Assembly (NCBI GenBank): GCA_000526575.1
Contig: JAGI01000003.1
Span: 372,001-436,000 of the forward strand
Direction of reading: 5' to 3'
Source: Clostridium sp. 12(A)
GTDB lineage: Bacteria > Bacillota > Clostridia > Lachnospirales > Lachnospiraceae
DNA: 64,000 nt
The notes under the pieces are model-generated. The model was not told the origin of the DNA. It did not search any database and saw only the letters and a program-made list of their open reading frames with translations. Positions within the stretch are counted from its first letter, which is position 1. Every line of letters begins with the position of its first letter. The position numbers and the translations under genes are program-made. Below are positions 884 through 57,439 of this stretch, one piece after another.

Positions 884-1702
884 TTAGAATATTCCAATAA
901 AGGCTCCAATAAAGGCAAAGGCAAAGATTCCAACAATCAGCTGTACCGGGCGTCTGCCCTTTTTAATCAGTCGCATCAGGAATAATACAAGAATGATGCT
1001 CAAAATACCAGGAAAGATGGAATTTAATACATCTAAGATCACCACAGAGGTCTTTCCCATCTGAATGGTCCAGTTAAGAGGAACATTAACAATGCCTGCC
1101 GTCATCGCTCCTACCATGGTAACTCCCAGAATAGATGCTGACTTTCTAAGAGCCGGCATGAGTCCGGAGCTGAATATCTTATCGATAAATGAAGTTCCGT
1201 AAATGTATCCGAATTTGACACCAAAATATTTTAAAATAGACTGGGTGATGCCGTACAAAAAGATAAATATAGGGACTCCTAAAAAGTTTCCCTGTGAACA
1301 GAGTCCGATGGCAACGCCTGCTGCAATGATTCTCAAACAGTTAAAGAACAGGGAATCGAACATGCCTGCCGTAGGTCCCATTAATGCTGCTTTAATGCTT
1401 TCAATGGTCTTTGCGTCAACCGATTGTTTCTCCTTGTGCTCCTTTTCCATGGCATAGGATAGTCCGGCGATAAAGGAAAATGGAACAGCGTGTGTATTAA
1501 AAAAATTCTGATGTCTGGCGTAAGCCTCTTTTTTTCCTTCCTCATCGCCTTCGTAGGTTTTCTCGATGGCTGGCTGCATGGTAGCGGTAAAGCCATTGGC
1601 CTCCATCTTGGTCATATTAAAGGACAAAAAGGTCAAATGAGAACGGATAAACATAGATTTTAAGACTTTCTTTTCTTCAATGCTTAAATTTTTCTTTTCC
1701 AT
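884..1702 (-). CDS. PTS mannose/N-acetylgalactosamine-family IID component
   Basis: Membrane partner of IIC in the sugar channel of a mannose-family phosphotransferase system. The protein is 272 aa, normal for EIID. It has the family's soluble N-terminal half (KSMFIRSHLTFLSFNMTKME, then the GPTAGMFDSLFFNCLR region) followed by hydrophobic segments at about residues 120-160 and 185-270. The start codon overlaps the IIC stop by one base (TAATG), which indicates translational coupling. Substrate cannot be read from IID; the adjacent NagA-like gene suggests an N-acetylated amino sugar. Confidence 0.9.
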   Translation of the reverse strand: MEKKNLSIEEKKVLKSMFIRSHLTFLSFNMTKMEANGFTATMQPAIEKTYEGDEEGKKEAYARHQNFFNTHAVPFSFIAGLSYAMEKEHKEKQSVDAKTIESIKAALMGPTAGMFDSLFFNCLRIIAAGVAIGLCSQGNFLGVPIFIFLYGITQSILKYFGVKFGYIYGTSFIDKIFSSGLMPALRKSASILGVTMVGAMTAGIVNVPLNWTIQMGKTSVVILDVLNSIFPGILSIILVLFLMRLIKKGRRPVQLIVGIFAFAFIGAFIGIF

Positions 1703-32089: not shown

Positions 32090-32365
32090 TCCTACACCTC
32101 TTCCATGAATTTCTTTGGTTTTATATTCATATTTAACAAAATTTTCTGGATTTTATTTATTATTTATGCAGTTTTTTCTAATCTCAATCCTATTATTTCC
32201 ATTGTATAAAACCTTATTCTGTTAAAATGCATTTATTTCACGAAAAACACTACACAAACCCGACATTATCGTGTATAATCGTATCGTTCGCATTTTTATG
32301 GTATGATGTTAAAAAGTAAAATGGGAATGATTTTATGAATAAAATGAAAATTATTTATATTATAT

Positions 32366-32451
32366 GGAAGCGTATCGAAGTGGTCATAACGAGCCGCACT
32401 CGAAATGCGGTTGTCCGCAAGGGCACGTGGGTTCGAATCCCACCGCTTCCG
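32366..32451 (+). tRNA. tRNA-Ser (anticodon CGA)
   Basis: Acceptor stem GGAAGCG / CGCTTCC, anticodon arm CCGCA-CTCGAAA-TGCGG giving anticodon CGA (reads UCG), long class-II variable arm, T-arm GTGGGTTCGAATCCCAC, discriminator G. CCA is not encoded. All stems pair. Confidence 0.97.
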
Positions 32452-32460
32452 TCATCGACA

Positions 32461-50487: not shown

Positions 50488-52017
50488 TTATTTCTCTATT
50501 TTTATCACCTGGTCAATCCAGTCGCAGTAAAATGCCTGTTCATGAGAAACAAGTAAAACCGTGCCGGAAAAATCAATTAAGGCTGACTTCAGTGAATCCT
50601 TTGCCTGAGCATCCAGATGATTGGTAGGCTCATCGAGGATTAAAAAGTTGCACGGTTCAAACTGGAGTAAGCATAGTTTAACCTTTGTCTGTTCTCCTCC
50701 GCTTAAGGTTCCTATGGGCTGCATGGCATGTTTACTGGATATTCCGTTTCGGGCAAGATGCTCTCTTACTTCCTTTATGGTCAGGGCTGGATTTTTATCC
50801 GAAACTACTTCCATCGGCGTTTTCCTACCATTTTCCCATCTTAAATCCTGTTCAAAATAACACACCTTCACCTGATCTGAAAATCGGTAACAGCCATCAA
50901 GAGGTGAAAGCTGGCCCATCAAGGTCTTTAATAGTGTGGATTTACCGATCCCATTAAAGCCCGTAATGACTGCTTTCTGGCCTCCTTTTAAGCTAAAATG
51001 AATGCCTTCCAGAACAGGAGTATCATATCCCACTGCCAGATTTTTCACAGTCAGATGCTCTCCATTGGTAACAGGAAGCTCTGGAAAGCAAAAATATGGC
51101 TTTCTCTCTTTTTGATGCAATGCCTCCATCCTATCCATGCGGTCAAGCTGCTTTTGACGCCCCCTTGCCATCTTTGATTTTCTTCCGGCAATGTTTTTAC
51201 GGATAAATTCTTCTGTCTTTTTAATCTCTTTTTGCTGGGCGGAATACTGCCTGATATAATCCTCTCTTAGAAGTGATTTTTTCTTCAAGAACTCGGAGTA
51301 CGTGCCGTAATATTTGGTTATTTTCAGATTATCAATATCGCAGATTCGGTTGGCGATTCTTTCCAGAAACCCATAATCATGGGATACCACCAGAAAGGCG
51401 TTTTCCAGGGAAGACAAATAATCCGATAACCAGCCGATATGCTCTTTGTCAAGGAAGTTGGTAGGCTCATCTAAAAGGAGAACATCCGGCTTTTCTAAAA
51501 GCAGCTTTGCAAGAATCACTTTTGCCCTTTGACCTCCGCTTAATTGATGAATGGAACGTTCCAGTCCCACTGCAGTCAGCCCCAGTCCATTGGCTACCTG
51601 CTGGATATTGGTATCAATAGAGTAAAACCCCTTTCTCTCAAGCTCTTCCTGATACCGGGCTGCCACACTTAAGGCATCCAGGCTTCCCTTAGCTCCTTTT
51701 TCATAGAGCCGGAGTGTTTCTTCCTCCATTTCGTAAAGTTCCTTAAAGGCAGACTTTAAAAAGTCAATGATAGTTACCTCTTTTAAAATTTCTGCATACT
51801 GATCCAGATACCCTACGGATATATCCGGTTGCCAATAAGCCCGGCCTGCATCCGGTACCACCTGGTCCGTACAGATTTTAATGAGTGTACTTTTTCCTGT
51901 TCCATTCTGACCTACTATGCCGATATGCTCTCCCTTATTTAAAGTCAGTTCTGCTTCTTTGTAAAGCAGGTTATCTCCAAACGAATGTGTTAATCCTTCC
52001 AATTCTAATAAACTCAT
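50488..52017 (-). CDS. ABC-F protein, probably ribosome-protecting antibiotic resistance factor
   Basis: 509 aa with two ATPase domains and no membrane segment. Walker A GQNGTGKSTLIK and GFNGIGKSTLLK, signatures LSGGQRAKVILAKLL and LSGGEQTKVKL, Walker B LLLDEPTNFLD and LILDEPTNHLD. Between them lies a basic helical linker (about 240-310, ARGRQKQLDRMDRMEALHQK), the arm that reaches the ribosome's peptidyl-transferase centre in resistance ABC-Fs. A 380-nt leader with ORF and tandem hairpins precedes it, the usual sign of antibiotic-induced expression. The drug range cannot be read by eye. Confidence 0.88.
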   Translation of the reverse strand: MSLLELEGLTHSFGDNLLYKEAELTLNKGEHIGIVGQNGTGKSTLIKICTDQVVPDAGRAYWQPDISVGYLDQYAEILKEVTIIDFLKSAFKELYEMEEETLRLYEKGAKGSLDALSVAARYQEELERKGFYSIDTNIQQVANGLGLTAVGLERSIHQLSGGQRAKVILAKLLLEKPDVLLLDEPTNFLDKEHIGWLSDYLSSLENAFLVVSHDYGFLERIANRICDIDNLKITKYYGTYSEFLKKKSLLREDYIRQYSAQQKEIKKTEEFIRKNIAGRKSKMARGRQKQLDRMDRMEALHQKERKPYFCFPELPVTNGEHLTVKNLAVGYDTPVLEGIHFSLKGGQKAVITGFNGIGKSTLLKTLMGQLSPLDGCYRFSDQVKVCYFEQDLRWENGRKTPMEVVSDKNPALTIKEVREHLARNGISSKHAMQPIGTLSGGEQTKVKLCLLQFEPCNFLILDEPTNHLDAQAKDSLKSALIDFSGTVLLVSHEQAFYCDWIDQVIKIEK

Positions 52018-52060
52018 GCTAATTCATTTCCTTTCTTCTCTTATGGCTTGCGCATAAACG

Positions 52061-52110
52061 AAAAAAGGCAGAAGACAAAGATACACAATGGTATCTGCCT
52101 TCTGCCTTTT
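52061..52110 (-). terminator. Attenuator terminator immediately upstream of the ABC-F gene
   Basis: 12-bp stem AAAAGGCAGAAG / CTTCTGCCTTTT with inner ATAC/GTAT, followed on the minus strand by six T and CG. It ends 44 nt before the ABC-F ATG, so it must be read through for the gene to be expressed. Confidence 0.85.
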
Positions 52111-52141
52111 GGCCTGAATGGGCCAATGGTGATATCAATGC

Positions 52142-52177
52142 AAAAGGCTGGGGACAAAACATTGTCCTCAGCCTTTT
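52142..52177 (-). terminator. Upstream leader hairpin of the ABC-F attenuator
   Basis: Stem AAAAGGCTGAGGAC / GTCCCCAGCCTTTT (one A-C mismatch on the minus strand), 8-nt loop, ends in TTTT. Its 3' arm GCCTTTT is complementary to the 5' arm AAAAGGC of the terminator at 52061-52110, so the two hairpins can switch. Between them TTGGCC/GGCCAA (52109-52126) forms a small spacer hairpin. Confidence 0.7.
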
Positions 52178-52274
52178 CATACGCAAAATGACACACGGAA
52201 AACAAGCTATAGCGAAAATGATACTTTCATTCCTGCTATGGCTATGTTTCCCGATGAAATCTTATGGCGTTGAT

Positions 52275-52364
52275 TTATACGCTATACTCTGCACAATGTT
52301 TCACCGGTATGGATTGTACAGAGTTGAATATTCTTGTAGGTTTATCTGTTAAATAAAAGTTCAT
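52275..52364 (-). CDS. Leader peptide of the ABC-F gene
   Basis: 29-codon ORF beginning MNFYLTDKPTRIF and ending KHCAEYSV. It has the best kind of ribosome site (AAAAGGAG, 6-nt spacing to ATG 52364) and starts about 30 nt into the transcript. A stem CTTAAG-AAGGGC / GCCCTTAA just before that site could modulate access. Expected role: a translating ribosome stalled by an antibiotic alters downstream folding. About 100 nt, including a further imperfect hairpin (about 52200-52252), separate the ORF from the first terminator-like stem. Confidence 0.65.
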   Translation of the reverse strand: MNFYLTDKPTRIFNSVQSIPVKHCAEYSV

Positions 52365-52400
52365 GCTGATCTCCTTTTAAGGGCACTGCCCTTCTTAAGC

Positions 52401-52429
52401 ATCATACTACATCATGTTTTTGCTGTCAA
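52401..52429 (-). promoter_or_regulatory. Promoter of the ABC-F leader transcript
   Basis: Minus strand: perfect TTGACA (52424-52429), 17-bp spacer, TATGAT (52401-52406). One of the best promoters in the window, consistent with constant transcription controlled later by attenuation. Confidence 0.8.
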
Positions 52430-52441
52430 ACCCAAACTTTT

Positions 52442-53200
52442 TTATATGCCAAGTTCTTTCATTTTCTCCATTACTTCAAGAAGATTCTTGTCCTGGGCCA
52501 TCTCGTCCTTATTCTGGAACCTTAACTCACTTACGATCTGTCCGTCGCTCATAAATAAGACTCTTCCTGCCCTGGCTGCTACTTTGGGATCGTGGGTCAC
52601 CAGTAAAAGGGCCGTTCCCTCCCTGTTGATTTCTGCAAAGATATCCATGATCTCATGAGCAGTTTTGGAATTTAAGGCGCCGGTCGGCTCATCTGCCATT
52701 ATAATTCTTGGTTGGCTCATAAGAGCCCGGCAAATTCCTGCCCGCTGGAGCTGGCCTCCGGATACTTTGGTGATTTCCCGCTGGGAAAGCTCCCCAATTC
52801 CCATTCCATCCATAAGTTCTCTGGCTCTCTTTTTAAGCCTTTGGGAATCCTTTTTATGGTCCCTTAAGGACGGGAGTAAAATGTTATCAAGGATATTTAG
52901 ATTTTTTAACAAAGTGGGCTGTTGAAAGACAAAGCCGATTTTACTGCGCCTTAAATCCGCCAGCGCATCTTCCGAGAGGCCATCTAACGCTCTGCCATCA
53001 AAGGCAATGGTTCCGCCATCAGCAGGGTCCATTCCGCTTAATACATAAAGCAGAGTGGATTTTCCCGAGCCAGAAGGACCCATGACTGCTGCAAATTCCC
53101 CTTCTCCTATCTCCAGAGACACGCCAGTAAGTACTGTCTGAGGTTCCCCGCCCTGGTCATATACTTTTACAATTCCTTCTGCTGTGATCAGTTTTTTCAT
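52442..53200 (-). CDS. MacB/LolD-type ABC transporter ATPase
   Basis: 252 aa. Walker [20 protein letters not shown]-loop FVFQQPTLLKNL, signature VSGGQLQRAGICRAL, Walker B IIMADEPTGALNS and VTHDPKVAA are intact. Works with the FtsX-type permease 3 bp upstream. The family usually performs mechanotransmission, exporting or extruding peptides and drugs, rather than import. Last gene of the TetR-controlled operon. Confidence 0.92.
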   Translation of the reverse strand: MKKLITAEGIVKVYDQGGEPQTVLTGVSLEIGEGEFAAVMGPSGSGKSTLLYVLSGMDPADGGTIAFDGRALDGLSEDALADLRRSKIGFVFQQPTLLKNLNILDNILLPSLRDHKKDSQRLKKRARELMDGMGIGELSQREITKVSGGQLQRAGICRALMSQPRIIMADEPTGALNSKTAHEIMDIFAEINREGTALLLVTHDPKVAARAGRVLFMSDGQIVSELRFQNKDEMAQDKNLLEVMEKMKELGI

Positions 53201-53203
53201 CTC

Positions 53204-55522
53204 TTACTCCTTTATATGCTGGGATATTTGAATGCTCCTGATCCCTGACGTTCCAAGAAGTGTCGCCAGCAATACGGTACTTCCCATCAGTAACGGCATG
53301 ATCAGATAAGCGGATACAGGATCTATGACAAATCGAAAGGCTGCAGCTCCAAAAGATGCGATTAAGGCGCCTGCCATGGCCTCTCCCAGCGTATTGGAAA
53401 GAACCGTACCAAGCAGGACTCCCAGCAGAAGAATTACCAGGAAACGGGTGATATACTGTGCAGAAATATCCTTAAAGGTATATCCCAATGATTTCATGAC
53501 CGCTATGGAATATTTCTCTTTTGCAAGAAGCAGCTTCATCATCAGCATGGTAACCAGAAGAATCATGAAAAGTGCCGATACCATTCCAATGGAAGCGGCT
53601 CTCCCTACGGCACGAATGGTAGGTCCAAAGGTCTGCAAAATATAACCGTCGATGCCCGAAATCTTAGCAAAGGGAAAGCTCTCCCCGTACTCTACTGTTT
53701 TCTTATGAGCGGATACCCCAGGCGCCGCTTTTACGGCAATGGTTGTCCACATCGGCTTTTTCCAAGCCCCATCAAAAGATGCCTTAGCTGTTTTTCCGCC
53801 GTTGGTAATATCCGAATAAATACCGCAAACCACCAACTGCCTTTCCATACCAACTTCCACCAGCACCATGGTATCTCCCACCTGTTTGTTCCATTCATTT
53901 CCATTGAGGACAGAAAGAGCAATCTCCCCTTCTGCTTCCGGTGGTTTTCCCTTTACGTACTGCACGGGAAATGTGGTGTGGCTGCCTAGTTCAATTTTTA
54001 ACGGTTCCACACTGCCTGAGGCAGATCTGGCATAGAATCGTTTGGTGGTCAATACTGCGTACTCAGCCACCTCCGGATCCCCCTTTAACCTCTGAATTAT
54101 TTCCTTTCCCATTTCTTCTTCACCTGGTGTAGTTTGGATTCTTATGAGAAAATCACTTCGTCCAATCCCCATATAGGTGCTAAATTCAGGGGAGGAAATG
54201 GTGTGGTTCAAATTCATTGGTACCAGTATGATAAATGCAGAAGCTATTATTACAAGGAGCATGGTGGCATAAAGCTTTTTCCGACAAAGAACCTCTTTGA
54301 TTCCAAGAAACACGTTTGTACTGAAAAACATTTGATTGCTTAAGGATAGTCTGCTTGATTTTCCCTTTGTCTCTCCTGCTCCTACAAAGCGGATGGCCTG
54401 CGCGGCAGATTGCTTGCCCATGCGTCTTAATACACGGTTAACAAAAAACAGTATAAAGCAATAAATCACCAATATGCCAGCGGCACCCAGACCTATGGCA
54501 AGGAGTTTACTTCCTCCCTCTCCTATGGTCTGACGGATATTTTTAAGAGCTGCCCCTGAAAGCCATAAGGATACCATGCCTCCAAGGAGACAGCCGGCAC
54601 CACCTATGACTGCGTATTTGCCTAGATACAGCTTTTTCAAATCAGAGGTACGCATTCCGATGGCTTTCATGACCCCAATTTCCCTGGCCTCTTCCTCCAT
54701 TTTTTCAAGAAGGGTAAAGCGAATGCATAAAAAGGCAATGAGGACCACCAAAGCGCTGATAAGAAGAATAACTGCAATCATCAGGCCATCGGATACACCA
54801 TTCATCATTTTAAATAAAGGATAGGTCACCGTTGGTCCATCGGCTTCCAGACCGGCATTTATATAGGCAGATTCAAAGGCACCCAGGTCCTTTAGATCCT
54901 TTAGTCTGAATTCAATGAGATACTCGGGGCTGCCTAAGTCCCTTATCTCATTATAATCATGCTCACTAATAAGGAAACGCTTGGAGGAAGCCAGTAAGGA
55001 GTTCATCTGGGAGTCCTTAAGAAAGCCAGCCACAATAAACTGCTTTCCTAAAATAACAGCCTTATCTCCAAGGTGTGCGGTGCCATCTCTTCCATAAGCA
55101 ATGGGAACAAAAAGTTCTCCATCTCTAGGGTGAAGGATTTCTCCGTCAAGGGAAAGAAGAAAATCAAAGGATTTACTTTGAGTGGAGAGACCATTATCCT
55201 GGACGCTTTCAGATAAGTTATTGGCACCTATTACAATTTCTGATCCCTCTGCATTTAGAAATTCCAGGACCTGAAAATCGGTAACGCTTTCCTCATTGTC
55301 TGCAAACTGCTCCAGACGGGCAAGGTCCGGCTTTTCGGAATTCATCTGAAGAAAATGAGGCGTTTTTGCCTGAACCATAAGCCCGTCAATGGCCCCGGTC
55401 AAATGAACCATCAGCAGTGCTGCCAGGGAAACCAGGGCAGCTGCTGCGGCAATAAAAACAAAGGTAATGAATGATACTGCAGGACTCTTTACAATGTCGT
55501 TGCGGATGATCCGTCGAAACAT
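53204..55522 (-). CDS. FtsX-like ABC transporter permease
   Basis: 772 aa. A transmembrane helix at about 20-42 is followed by an extracellular domain (about 45-245), three helices (about 250-365), a linker, a helix at about 415-435, a second extracellular domain (about 440-630), and three C-terminal helices. The FtsX signature REIGVMKAIGMRTSDLKKLY lies after the first bundle and is repeated as YSIAVMKSLGYTFKDISAQY. Start overlaps the MFS gene by 34 bp. Confidence 0.9.
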   Translation of the reverse strand: MFRRIIRNDIVKSPAVSFITFVFIAAAAALVSLAALLMVHLTGAIDGLMVQAKTPHFLQMNSEKPDLARLEQFADNEESVTDFQVLEFLNAEGSEIVIGANNLSESVQDNGLSTQSKSFDFLLSLDGEILHPRDGELFVPIAYGRDGTAHLGDKAVILGKQFIVAGFLKDSQMNSLLASSKRFLISEHDYNEIRDLGSPEYLIEFRLKDLKDLGAFESAYINAGLEADGPTVTYPLFKMMNGVSDGLMIAVILLISALVVLIAFLCIRFTLLEKMEEEAREIGVMKAIGMRTSDLKKLYLGKYAVIGGAGCLLGGMVSLWLSGAALKNIRQTIGEGGSKLLAIGLGAAGILVIYCFILFFVNRVLRRMGKQSAAQAIRFVGAGETKGKSSRLSLSNQMFFSTNVFLGIKEVLCRKKLYATMLLVIIASAFIILVPMNLNHTISSPEFSTYMGIGRSDFLIRIQTTPGEEEMGKEIIQRLKGDPEVAEYAVLTTKRFYARSASGSVEPLKIELGSHTTFPVQYVKGKPPEAEGEIALSVLNGNEWNKQVGDTMVLVEVGMERQLVVCGIYSDITNGGKTAKASFDGAWKKPMWTTIAVKAAPGVSAHKKTVEYGESFPFAKISGIDGYILQTFGPTIRAVGRAASIGMVSALFMILLVTMLMMKLLLAKEKYSIAVMKSLGYTFKDISAQYITRFLVILLLGVLLGTVLSNTLGEAMAGALIASFGAAAFRFVIDPVSAYLIMPLLMGSTVLLATLLGTSGIRSIQISQHIKE

Positions 55523-56805
55523 AGGTCACCTCCACCTTCCAGCTTCTGGACCGCTTTGATGCGGTATAAAGCGATCGAAACGATACACAGCAATCCGCCG
55601 GCTATGACGATTAAAAATCCGGCGCCTCTGCCTTCTCCTGTTCCAAGAATCTCTCCAACGCTTCCAGACAGCCCTCCGCCCTCTATGAGAAGGGGAGTAA
55701 ACACATAGTCTGCCAATACTCCTGAGGTTGCATAGGCTGCGATATATCCCAGCTGGGAAATCAGTCCCACAAGCCCCCAGACACGTCCTTGCAGCTCGTT
55801 ATCAATGTTGGTACGAAGGAGATAATCTATACTCATATTGGCAAGAGGGAGCATGGCAAAGAATAATATTCCTGATATGGTTATAAAGGTTAAGTTCTCC
55901 TTCATACCAAAGAGTGCCATGAACACCCCAGAGCCAAACAATGAAATACATAATACTTTAACATAACCTTTTTTAATGGGTATGATTCCTAAAAGGATGC
56001 TGGTAATGAGCATTCCCGATGCCATTAAGGTCTGTACCAGACCAAGAGTGGTGCTGTCTGAAAAACTTAAGATCATGGGAGATGCAAGCGTCTGGATATA
56101 GCCTAAGCACAAGGTGATAAACGTACCCATCCATACCAGTGTCATGACTCCTTTATTCTTAGAAAGGGCTCGGATTCCTTCCTTAAAATCCGAAAGAAAT
56201 GCAGTGTCTTTCTCCCTTTCCTTTGTTGCCAATCCCTTTCGAACTACCAGTGTGGTTGCCAGAGTAACAAAAAATGTACTCACATCAATAATAAGCAAAA
56301 GACTGATATCAAAGTGTCTCAGCAAAAAGCCGGCAATCACCGGTGAAATCAAATATTTCGCCGATCCGGCTGCCTGAACAAGACCGCTGGCTTTTGTATA
56401 CTGGTCCCCTGAGAGCATATCGGTAACCGTGGCACGGTAAGCCGGCTCCAGTAAGGAGAAAAATACGGAGCTAATCGTAACTCCCACATATATCTGCCAC
56501 ATCTGTACATCCTTGTATAAGAAACAAAACAGGATGAACAAAGGACCAAAGGCAGAAAGTCCGTCGCCTAATATCATAATCAGTCTGCGGTCATACCGGT
56601 CTGCCAATACCCCTGCCGGAGCACTGAGAAGCAGAGTGGGAAGAAAGGATAAAAGTGTCACCATGGCAACGTGGGAAGCCATGCCAGTCTTTTGATACAC
56701 GTAAACTCCAAGGCCAAAGGCTGTAAGACCTCCTCCAATGGAAGAAATTAAGTCTCCCAGCCAGAGGAGAAAAAATTTCTGAAATGCATTGTCTTTATGA
56801 TTCAT
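55489..56805 (-). CDS. MFS efflux transporter (Mef-like)
   Basis: 438 aa with about 12 helices. The Mef/macrolide-efflux group start (KFFLLWLGDLISSIGGGLTA) and motif A GVLADRYDRRLIM between helices 2 and 3 are visible. ATG 56805 with AAAAGGATG upstream is chosen; it overlaps the TetR stop by 11 bp, and the longer frame from 56901 lies inside tetR. Controlled together with the ABC genes, so the operon combines two pumps. Confidence 0.88.
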   Translation of the reverse strand: MNHKDNAFQKFFLLWLGDLISSIGGGLTAFGLGVYVYQKTGMASHVAMVTLLSFLPTLLLSAPAGVLADRYDRRLIMILGDGLSAFGPLFILFCFLYKDVQMWQIYVGVTISSVFFSLLEPAYRATVTDMLSGDQYTKASGLVQAAGSAKYLISPVIAGFLLRHFDISLLLIIDVSTFFVTLATTLVVRKGLATKEREKDTAFLSDFKEGIRALSKNKGVMTLVWMGTFITLCLGYIQTLASPMILSFSDSTTLGLVQTLMASGMLITSILLGIIPIKKGYVKVLCISLFGSGVFMALFGMKENLTFITISGILFFAMLPLANMSIDYLLRTNIDNELQGRVWGLVGLISQLGYIAAYATSGVLADYVFTPLLIEGGGLSGSVGEILGTGEGRGAGFLIVIAGGLLCIVSIALYRIKAVQKLEGGGDLCFDGSSATTL

Positions 56806-57439
56806 GTTCATCATCCTTTTCAAATATTTGCTTAGCAAATGTGAGGGTTCCTGTTTCCACGCCAAGGAGACGCTCTGTGTGAAAAATAAAAGCTTTGGCA
56901 CGGCTCAGCCTGTCTTCATCGGTTAGCTCTATCATATCTCCGTCGAATACGGTATTTGCATAGACTACCAGCATCTCCATGGCTTCATAGGGATATGGCG
57001 TGGTGCATAATCCCTGCTCCACTCCTTCTCTGATAATTCCAGCCAGGATAGGGGTCACTCCATTTAAGACAGCTTTCTGGGCCTTAAAATGCATCAGTGC
57101 ATTCTGTGGCTTATGAATCTGCTCAATAATTTCCCTTCCGCTTCCGTGGTTCATATTAAGTGCCAGAACCGTACTTACGATCCGTTCATAAACAGGAATG
57201 CTTTTATTTTTAGCAATCTCCTCTGCTCTGGTTAAAATGCCTCCACTGTACCGTTCTATCAGGGCATCCATAATGTCTTCCTTGGATTTAAAATGATAGT
57301 ATAAGGTTCCCCGTGCAATGCCAACGGCTTCTAAAATATCATTGGTACTGGTACCATCAAAGCCTTTCTGGGTAAATAAGTGATCTGCTGCATCTAATAT
57401 TTCATTTTTACGTTCTTCCGGATTTTTTATTATTTTCAT
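56795..57439 (-). CDS. TetR/AcrR-family repressor
   Basis: 214 aa. The N-terminal helix-turn-helix reads EILDAADHLFTQKGFDGTST and ILEAVGIARGTLYYHFKSKE (about 14-58). The rest is a helical ligand domain. First gene of the operon tetR-MFS-permease-ATPase, with AAAAGGAGAT upstream. It should bind the palindrome at its own transcription start and release on drug binding. Confidence 0.93.
   Translation of the reverse strand: MKIIKNPEERKNEILDAADHLFTQKGFDGTSTNDILEAVGIARGTLYYHFKSKEDIMDALIERYSGGILTRAEEIAKNKSIPVYERIVSTVLALNMNHGSGREIIEQIHKPQNALMHFKAQKAVLNGVTPILAGIIREGVEQGLCTTPYPYEAMEMLVVYANTVFDGDMIELTDEDRLSRAKAFIFHTERLLGVETGTLTFAKQIFEKDDEHES

Follow-up and report, generated by a model that had tools for sequence, protein, structure and literature searches.

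A uup RNA overlapping a predicted leader ORF ahead of an ABC-F gene of Clostridium sp. 12(A)

The ABC-F gene and its leader

The window, by which we mean the whole analysed stretch of 64,000 nucleotides, contains an ABC-F gene (50488..52017, minus strand) that encodes a protein of 509 amino acids, and the gene is preceded on the same strand by a leader with the layout of an attenuator. The protein was assigned to the profile NF000355 ("ribosomal protection-like ABC-F") with 390 bits against a cut-off of 380, and it misses the cut-offs of Vga, Lsa, Msr, Sal, OptrA and CplR by a wide margin. Membership of a named ARE ABC-F resistance subfamily was ruled out, the general NF000355 cut-off alone being passed. 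The best sequence matches of the protein among solved structures are YbiT and EttA, and PoxtA ranks lower. Directly upstream, an efflux-looking cluster follows on the same strand (52442-57439, minus strand) with a MacB/LolD-like ABC ATPase, a large permease, a Mef-like MFS gene and a TetR-type regulator. The only tRNA gene detected in the window encodes a tRNA-Ser (cga; 32365-32453, plus strand).

The features of the leader all lie on the minus strand and their coordinates are given in the direction of transcription. The promoter TTGACA-17-TATGAT is located at 52429..52401, where the initial annotation had described it as perfect; this holds for the -35 box, whereas the -10 box agrees with the consensus at 5/6 positions, giving 11/12 altogether. 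A promoter with at least 10/12 matches was also found in the 110 nt ahead of the ORF in 54/72 related leaders (see below), compared with 3/72 after shuffling. A 6-bp hairpin, AAGGGC-AGT-GCCCTT (52393..52379), lies at the 5' end of the transcript just ahead of the leader ribosome site, and one related leader (L025) has a similar hairpin with different letters. The ribosome site AAAAGGAG (52378..52371), a Shine-Dalgarno (SD) match, and the leader ORF of 29 codons (52364..52275; MNFYLTDKPTRIFNSVQSIPVKHCAEYSV) were located as previously proposed.

A hairpin of 11 bp inside the ORF, which had been overlooked, is the uup RNA (Rfam RF03060). It covers 52333..52286 and matches model positions 1-48 of 48 with 51.3 bits (E 8.7e-9), the curated gathering score being 36.8. 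The motif was reportedly described by Weinberg and co-workers in 2017. Its end is separated from the start of the ABC-F gene by 269 nt. The 5' arm of the hairpin, segment A (52323..52313), corresponds to codons S15-V16-Q17 of the ORF, and the 3' arm, segment B (52302..52287), to codons 23-26. The loop, segment L (CCGGTGAAA; 52307..52299), is complementary to segment C (TTTCATCGG; 52259..52251) downstream of the ORF. Besides segment C, the gap between the ORF and the first terminator-like hairpin contains a small stem spanning the stop codon (52282..52267) and a long stem (52253..52196), both predicted by folding. The own genome carries a second ABC-F gene (L002, C2:3515180-3516703; 42% identity to the ABC-F of the window), and despite this the Rfam search found a single uup copy in it.

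The two terminator-like stems that had been proposed were recovered as strong folds, T1 at 52177..52142 (-19.9 kcal/mol, z -6.2) and T2, which has a long T run, at 52110..52061 (-26.4 kcal/mol, z -7.0), the energies referring to slightly different end points. The apex of T1 is formed by segment D (ACAATGTTTT; 52165..52156), which is complementary to GAAACATTGT (52302..52293), a part of segment B, at 10/10 positions including one G-U pair. The folding check that had been suggested revealed that the leader as a whole is considerably more stable than 100 shuffled versions (z -7.9). A scan for consensus terminators yielded 0 sites in comparison to 3.2 on average in shuffles, perhaps because the short T run of T1 has a mere four T's and T2 contains a bulge.

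The leader ORF in related genomes

With the window's genome counted in each case, RF03060 was found in 13/299 genomes of the same family (11 above the cut-off), in 5/295 genomes of the order (4 above the cut-off) and in 4/398 genomes of the phylum. Moreover, a scan of named genomes with a uup letter pattern yielded at least 119 stretches, of which 80 were used. The matches listed include Lachnospiraceae, Oscillospiraceae, Clostridioides, Peptoniphilus, Anaerococcus, Enterococcus avium, Bacillus, Paenibacillus and others, as well as one gamma-proteobacterium (Izhakiella). Searches with the leader (52050-52440) against plasmids and with 60 nt of the related leader L012 against phages gave no match. 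The pattern loci and 22 Rfam loci, among them the window, were combined and near-identical ones were removed, which left 72 leaders; 12 of these originate from Rfam loci, and some close relatives are still included. Two loci below the Rfam cut-off (L020, L021) were left out of the counts and a third one (L027) was retained. L021 has its uup-like match at 1501-1552 (minus strand), and a leader ORF is missing from the expected frame. Since most leaders were fetched by the uup letter pattern, the uup letters are conserved in them by construction; this does not apply to the ORF start, the segments C and D and the promoter of the pattern loci.

The gene following the leader encodes an ABC-F protein in 47 cases, a MATE protein in 10 and a Mef-like MFS protein in 6; the remaining leaders precede one methyltransferase gene (Izhakiella) and one unclassified gene (L027), or are without gene sequence (7). 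These contexts were determined by HMM for the gene of the window and ten representatives and by short sequence patterns for the others. The pattern count alone gave 46 ABC-F and 5 Mef-like MFS genes, to which L115 was added by sequence and L118 by HMM. In Izhakiella australiensis (L054), none of the hairpins of the uup-like leader ahead of the methyltransferase gene fits the 3' arm of uup, and a leader ORF was not found in the usual frame.

Several observations argue for translation of the ORF. The 16 codons ahead of a conserved CAA are free of stop codons in the coding frame of 70/72 leaders, as compared with 11/72 and 17/72 in the other frames. If the start is picked by the ribosome site, the CAA is codon 17 in 48/72 leaders and one of the codons 15-19 in 65/72. 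At least 4 bases of the SD sequence are matched in 67/72 leaders, the ORF is 27-34 codons long in 61/72, and 69/72 leader peptides contain S-x-Q. Furthermore, the mismatch rates over codons 2-14 are 0.218, 0.206 and 0.365 at codon positions 1, 2 and 3, respectively, and 764/2211 codon differences are synonymous in frame, while the shifted frames give 292/1867 and 221/1794; the upstream control for this substitution analysis comprises 14 pairs only. As had been suggested, the regions upstream of orthologous ABC-F genes were compared, and the ORF together with segments C and D is present in 21/22 Lacrimispora orthologues, the window's own included. The remaining orthologue (L038, G981) has no uup leader within 800 nt. 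Based on these sequence patterns, the leader ORF is a genuine coding frame that is predicted to be translated. A basic residue is found at codon 12 in 62/72 leaders, which points to no particular drug. The macrolide-type +x+ arrest motif was rejected as a candidate signal; it is not enriched (40/70 leaders versus 35.7, sd 3.6, in shuffles). No match to the leader peptide strings was found in the literature searched.

Pairings of the uup hairpin and the terminator-like stems

The 5' half of the ORF varies in the manner of a coding sequence. In 8/72 leaders, five of which are Paenibacillus records, the spacing shifts the 3' half of uup into a different reading frame, and its letters are nevertheless kept, thus an RNA constraint acts there. 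Within the hairpin, one pair of the A:B stem occurs as T-A in 45 loci, C-G in 21, T-G in 5 and C-A in 1, and in L023 residues 15 and 26 of the peptide differ jointly with their stem pair retained. Over all loci, the A arm fits its own B arm slightly better than those of other loci (18.4 versus 16.9 of 20). The loop L is complementary to segment C at 12/16 or better in 68/72 leaders, compared with 1.8% of shuffles; segment C is located 42-47 nt downstream in 63/72 leaders, and the last pair of L:C is not formed in 19/70 loci.

The complementarity of the loop to a downstream segment, the strong conservation of the letters and their retention in leaders with a different frame could be explained by uup being the aptamer of a small-molecule riboswitch, in which A:B and L:C would form a pseudoknot and the overlapping ORF would be incidental. 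The classification of RF03060 by Rfam as cis-regulatory is in agreement with this explanation. However, the start codon, the ribosome site, the frame and the coding-type substitution extend over 14 codons outside the motif, and three unrelated resistance-type gene families lie downstream. Moreover, the section on uup of a 2024 review of C. difficile RNAs, which names CD3359 as the uup-linked gene of this organism, finds no further evidence for uup being a riboswitch (PMC11477304). A metabolite riboswitch is therefore an unlikely explanation for uup. The overlap of the leader ORF with the motif rather suggests that uup, an orphan RNA, switches resistance-type genes by monitoring translation, as far as can be judged from sequence.

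A second conserved relationship connects the uup hairpin with T1. Without making use of segment B, T1 was identified in 64/72 leaders, and none was found in the other 8. The complementarity between segment B and the T1 apex reaches at least 14/20 in 54/64 loci, as compared with 2% for shuffled B; in several of the 10 weak loci the automatic choice of T1 had picked a different hairpin. One variable position of B:D occurs as A-T in 42 loci, G-C in 10, G-T in 2 and A-C in none, and a second one as A-T in 38, G-T in 7 and G-C in 5, with 4 non-pairs among the 54 loci. For the commonest B type, the fit is better to T1s of the same loci than to foreign ones (17.6 versus 11.4), whereas for the three rarer B types the own T1 is no better (14.3, 13.9 and 14.0 versus 15.2, 14.9 and 15.4). 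When B:D was mapped onto a tree of 42 ABC-F proteins, its letter changed 3 times, far too few events for a covariation test; on average 0.9 of 3 independent pairs change together and none is opposed. Fisher values for the pairings take no account of kinship and are not relied on here. An anchored scan recovered the uup-to-T1 pairing in 89% of own and 76% of crossed pairs. Since L:C and B:D share nucleotides, the two pairings are mutually exclusive.

The initial annotation had assigned the switch to T1 and T2 themselves, whose arms would be exchanged between a 1:2/3:4 and a 2:3 state, and the uup hairpin would then be uninvolved in termination. As claimed, the arm GCCTTTT (52148..52142) is complementary to the arm AAAAGGC (52110..52104), and the pairing between the 3' arm of T1 and T2 amounts to -12.0 kcal/mol in the window and to -13.4 and -9.0 kcal/mol in the two nearest relatives shown. 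Furthermore, a second hairpin follows T1 in 53/58 loci examined, although in the MFS loci the gene starts had been set too far upstream, so that T2 was not properly assessed there. However, over 53 loci the 3' arm of T1 pairs with foreign T2 hairpins about as well as with its own (means of -6.65 and -7.0, respectively; median rank 0.46), and in the anchored scan the T1/T2 pairing is seen in 46% of own pairs as against 38% of crossed ones, well below the values for uup-to-T1. An exchange of arms between T1 and T2 is thus highly improbable, and the link that is conserved instead joins the T1 apex to the 3' arm of uup. The wider claim of a leader-peptide attenuator ahead of the ABC-F gene stood with respect to the ORF, its coding pattern and the attenuator-like layout, but not with respect to the T1/T2 swap. 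The anchored scan found no conserved pairing able to open T2. In L013, L014 and L024, T2 and the ABC-F gene are separated by a hairpin-rich stretch that, by eye, resembles an inserted repeat.

Proposed mechanism and comparison with known attenuators

Taken together, the leader is probably a ribosome-mediated transcription attenuator, whose sensor would be the uup RNA overlapping the leader ORF that is predicted to be translated. If no ribosome is slowed down, the A:B hairpin would form, probably locked by L:C, and T1 and then T2 would terminate transcription. A ribosome covers nucleotides -14 to +16. With approximately codon 16 in the P site it would cover segment A, and its front edge would lie just ahead of GAARCRTTGT, leaving segment B free. 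The free B strand could then capture segment D as it emerges from RNA polymerase, at a time when the far arm of T1 is still to be transcribed. The B:D pairing may delay T1 and thereby suppress termination, allowing readthrough into the gene. Ribosome-targeting drugs are the presumed cause of the stall, the position of which is likewise a prediction, and the polymerase would also have to pass T2.

Pseudoknot-free folding was computed for 20 leaders, which were hand-chosen from the 72 and in one of which (L030) the place of D is doubtful. When segment A is masked, as if a ribosome held codon 16 in its P site, and D is just out, the probability of B:D in the window rises from 0.00 to 0.99, and it is at least 0.8 in 19/20 leaders. 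At the same stage without a stall, B:D is already favoured (at least 0.69) in 7/20 leaders. Once the far arm of T1 has emerged, B:D has a probability of 0.00 in 20/20 leaders, stalled or not. Thus, B:D must act by timing or beside a part of T1, of which D forms the apex and not the base. The coexistence of L:C with A:B is not visible in these folds because pseudoknots were excluded.

The fact that T1 wins at equilibrium with or without a stall, together with its weak T run, would also fit a leader ORF that acts mainly on translation or RNA stability, T1 and T2 not being drug-controlled terminators. Such a mode of action has a precedent in the leader of cplR, for which the results relevant here describe both translational and transcriptional attenuation (PMC10201436). 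However, the anchored scan, which extended up to T2, revealed no conserved pairing of the ORF region toward the stretch ahead of the gene, and the uup-to-T1 pairing is, by contrast, conserved. We therefore regard control at the level of translation or stability as improbable and prefer transcription attenuation through the uup hairpin.

Beyond this locus, it may be speculated that uup is one portable drug-responsive translation sensor in Bacillota that drives ABC-F, MATE and Mef-like MFS defences. This would be accomplished by a pseudoknot-locked ORF hairpin; the strand set free from it would capture the nascent terminator at its apex, so that the terminator could not nucleate in time. We put this generalisation forward tentatively, and it may well turn out to be too broad. 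If it is true, inducible resistance-type genes from three families would be recognisable by a single type of leader across many Bacillota of gut and soil, C. difficile included, and a strand capturing a terminator apex would be an unusual route of antitermination. In any case, a testable function can be offered for an Rfam family that was left without one in the uup section of the 2024 review (PMC11477304), and the search is shifted toward ribosome arrest in the ORF and away from a metabolite ligand.

The literature searched contained no match to RF03060 or 'uup motif' and no link between uup and a leader peptide; the original uup description of 2017 might mention the ORF. The term 'uup' is also absent from the main text of the reports on the attenuators compared in the following (PMC8632094, PMC9226507, PMC10201436). 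The nearest relative is the uup RNA itself, since the window matches the full-length RF03060 model above the curated cut-off ahead of an ABC-F gene. In contrast to the Rfam model, a conserved leader ORF overlaps the motif here, and the motif is linked to two segments that the model does not cover, C and D.

The leader also resembles that of vmlR from B. subtilis, which, according to the passages describing it, consists of a uORF, an anti-antiterminator and an antiterminator (PMC9226507). In vmlR, the uORF lies in a first hairpin that serves as the anti-antiterminator, an antiterminator competes with an intrinsic terminator and an ABC-F gene follows; the present leader, likewise ahead of an ABC-F gene, would work with the same elements. 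However, the uORF described for vmlR is a tripeptide (MIN) on which ribosomes arrest at initiation, whereas the present ORF has 29 codons and a stall is expected near codon 16; unlike in vmlR, the strand that would be freed matches the terminator apex. The cplR leader of C. difficile, which is drug-responsive, combines a uORF and a terminator ahead of an ABC-F gene in a clostridial host, a combination that is predicted for the present leader as well; in the part of the report concerned, it differs by its uORF(MRI) and by the gene controlled, CDIF630_02847 (PMC10201436). Given the ORF lengths in the window and in most related leaders, assignment to the vmlR/cplR type with a tripeptide uORF and initiation arrest was rejected. 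A further parallel is uORFC-6-1 ahead of hflX, an RNA motif from a comparative search that holds a leader ORF and precedes a ribosome-rescue gene; as far as this motif is described, its peptide contains Arg-Leu-Arg, which the uup peptide does not (PMC8632094). By analogy with these systems, the uup leader is predicted to work like the vmlR and cplR attenuators, with a different anatomy.
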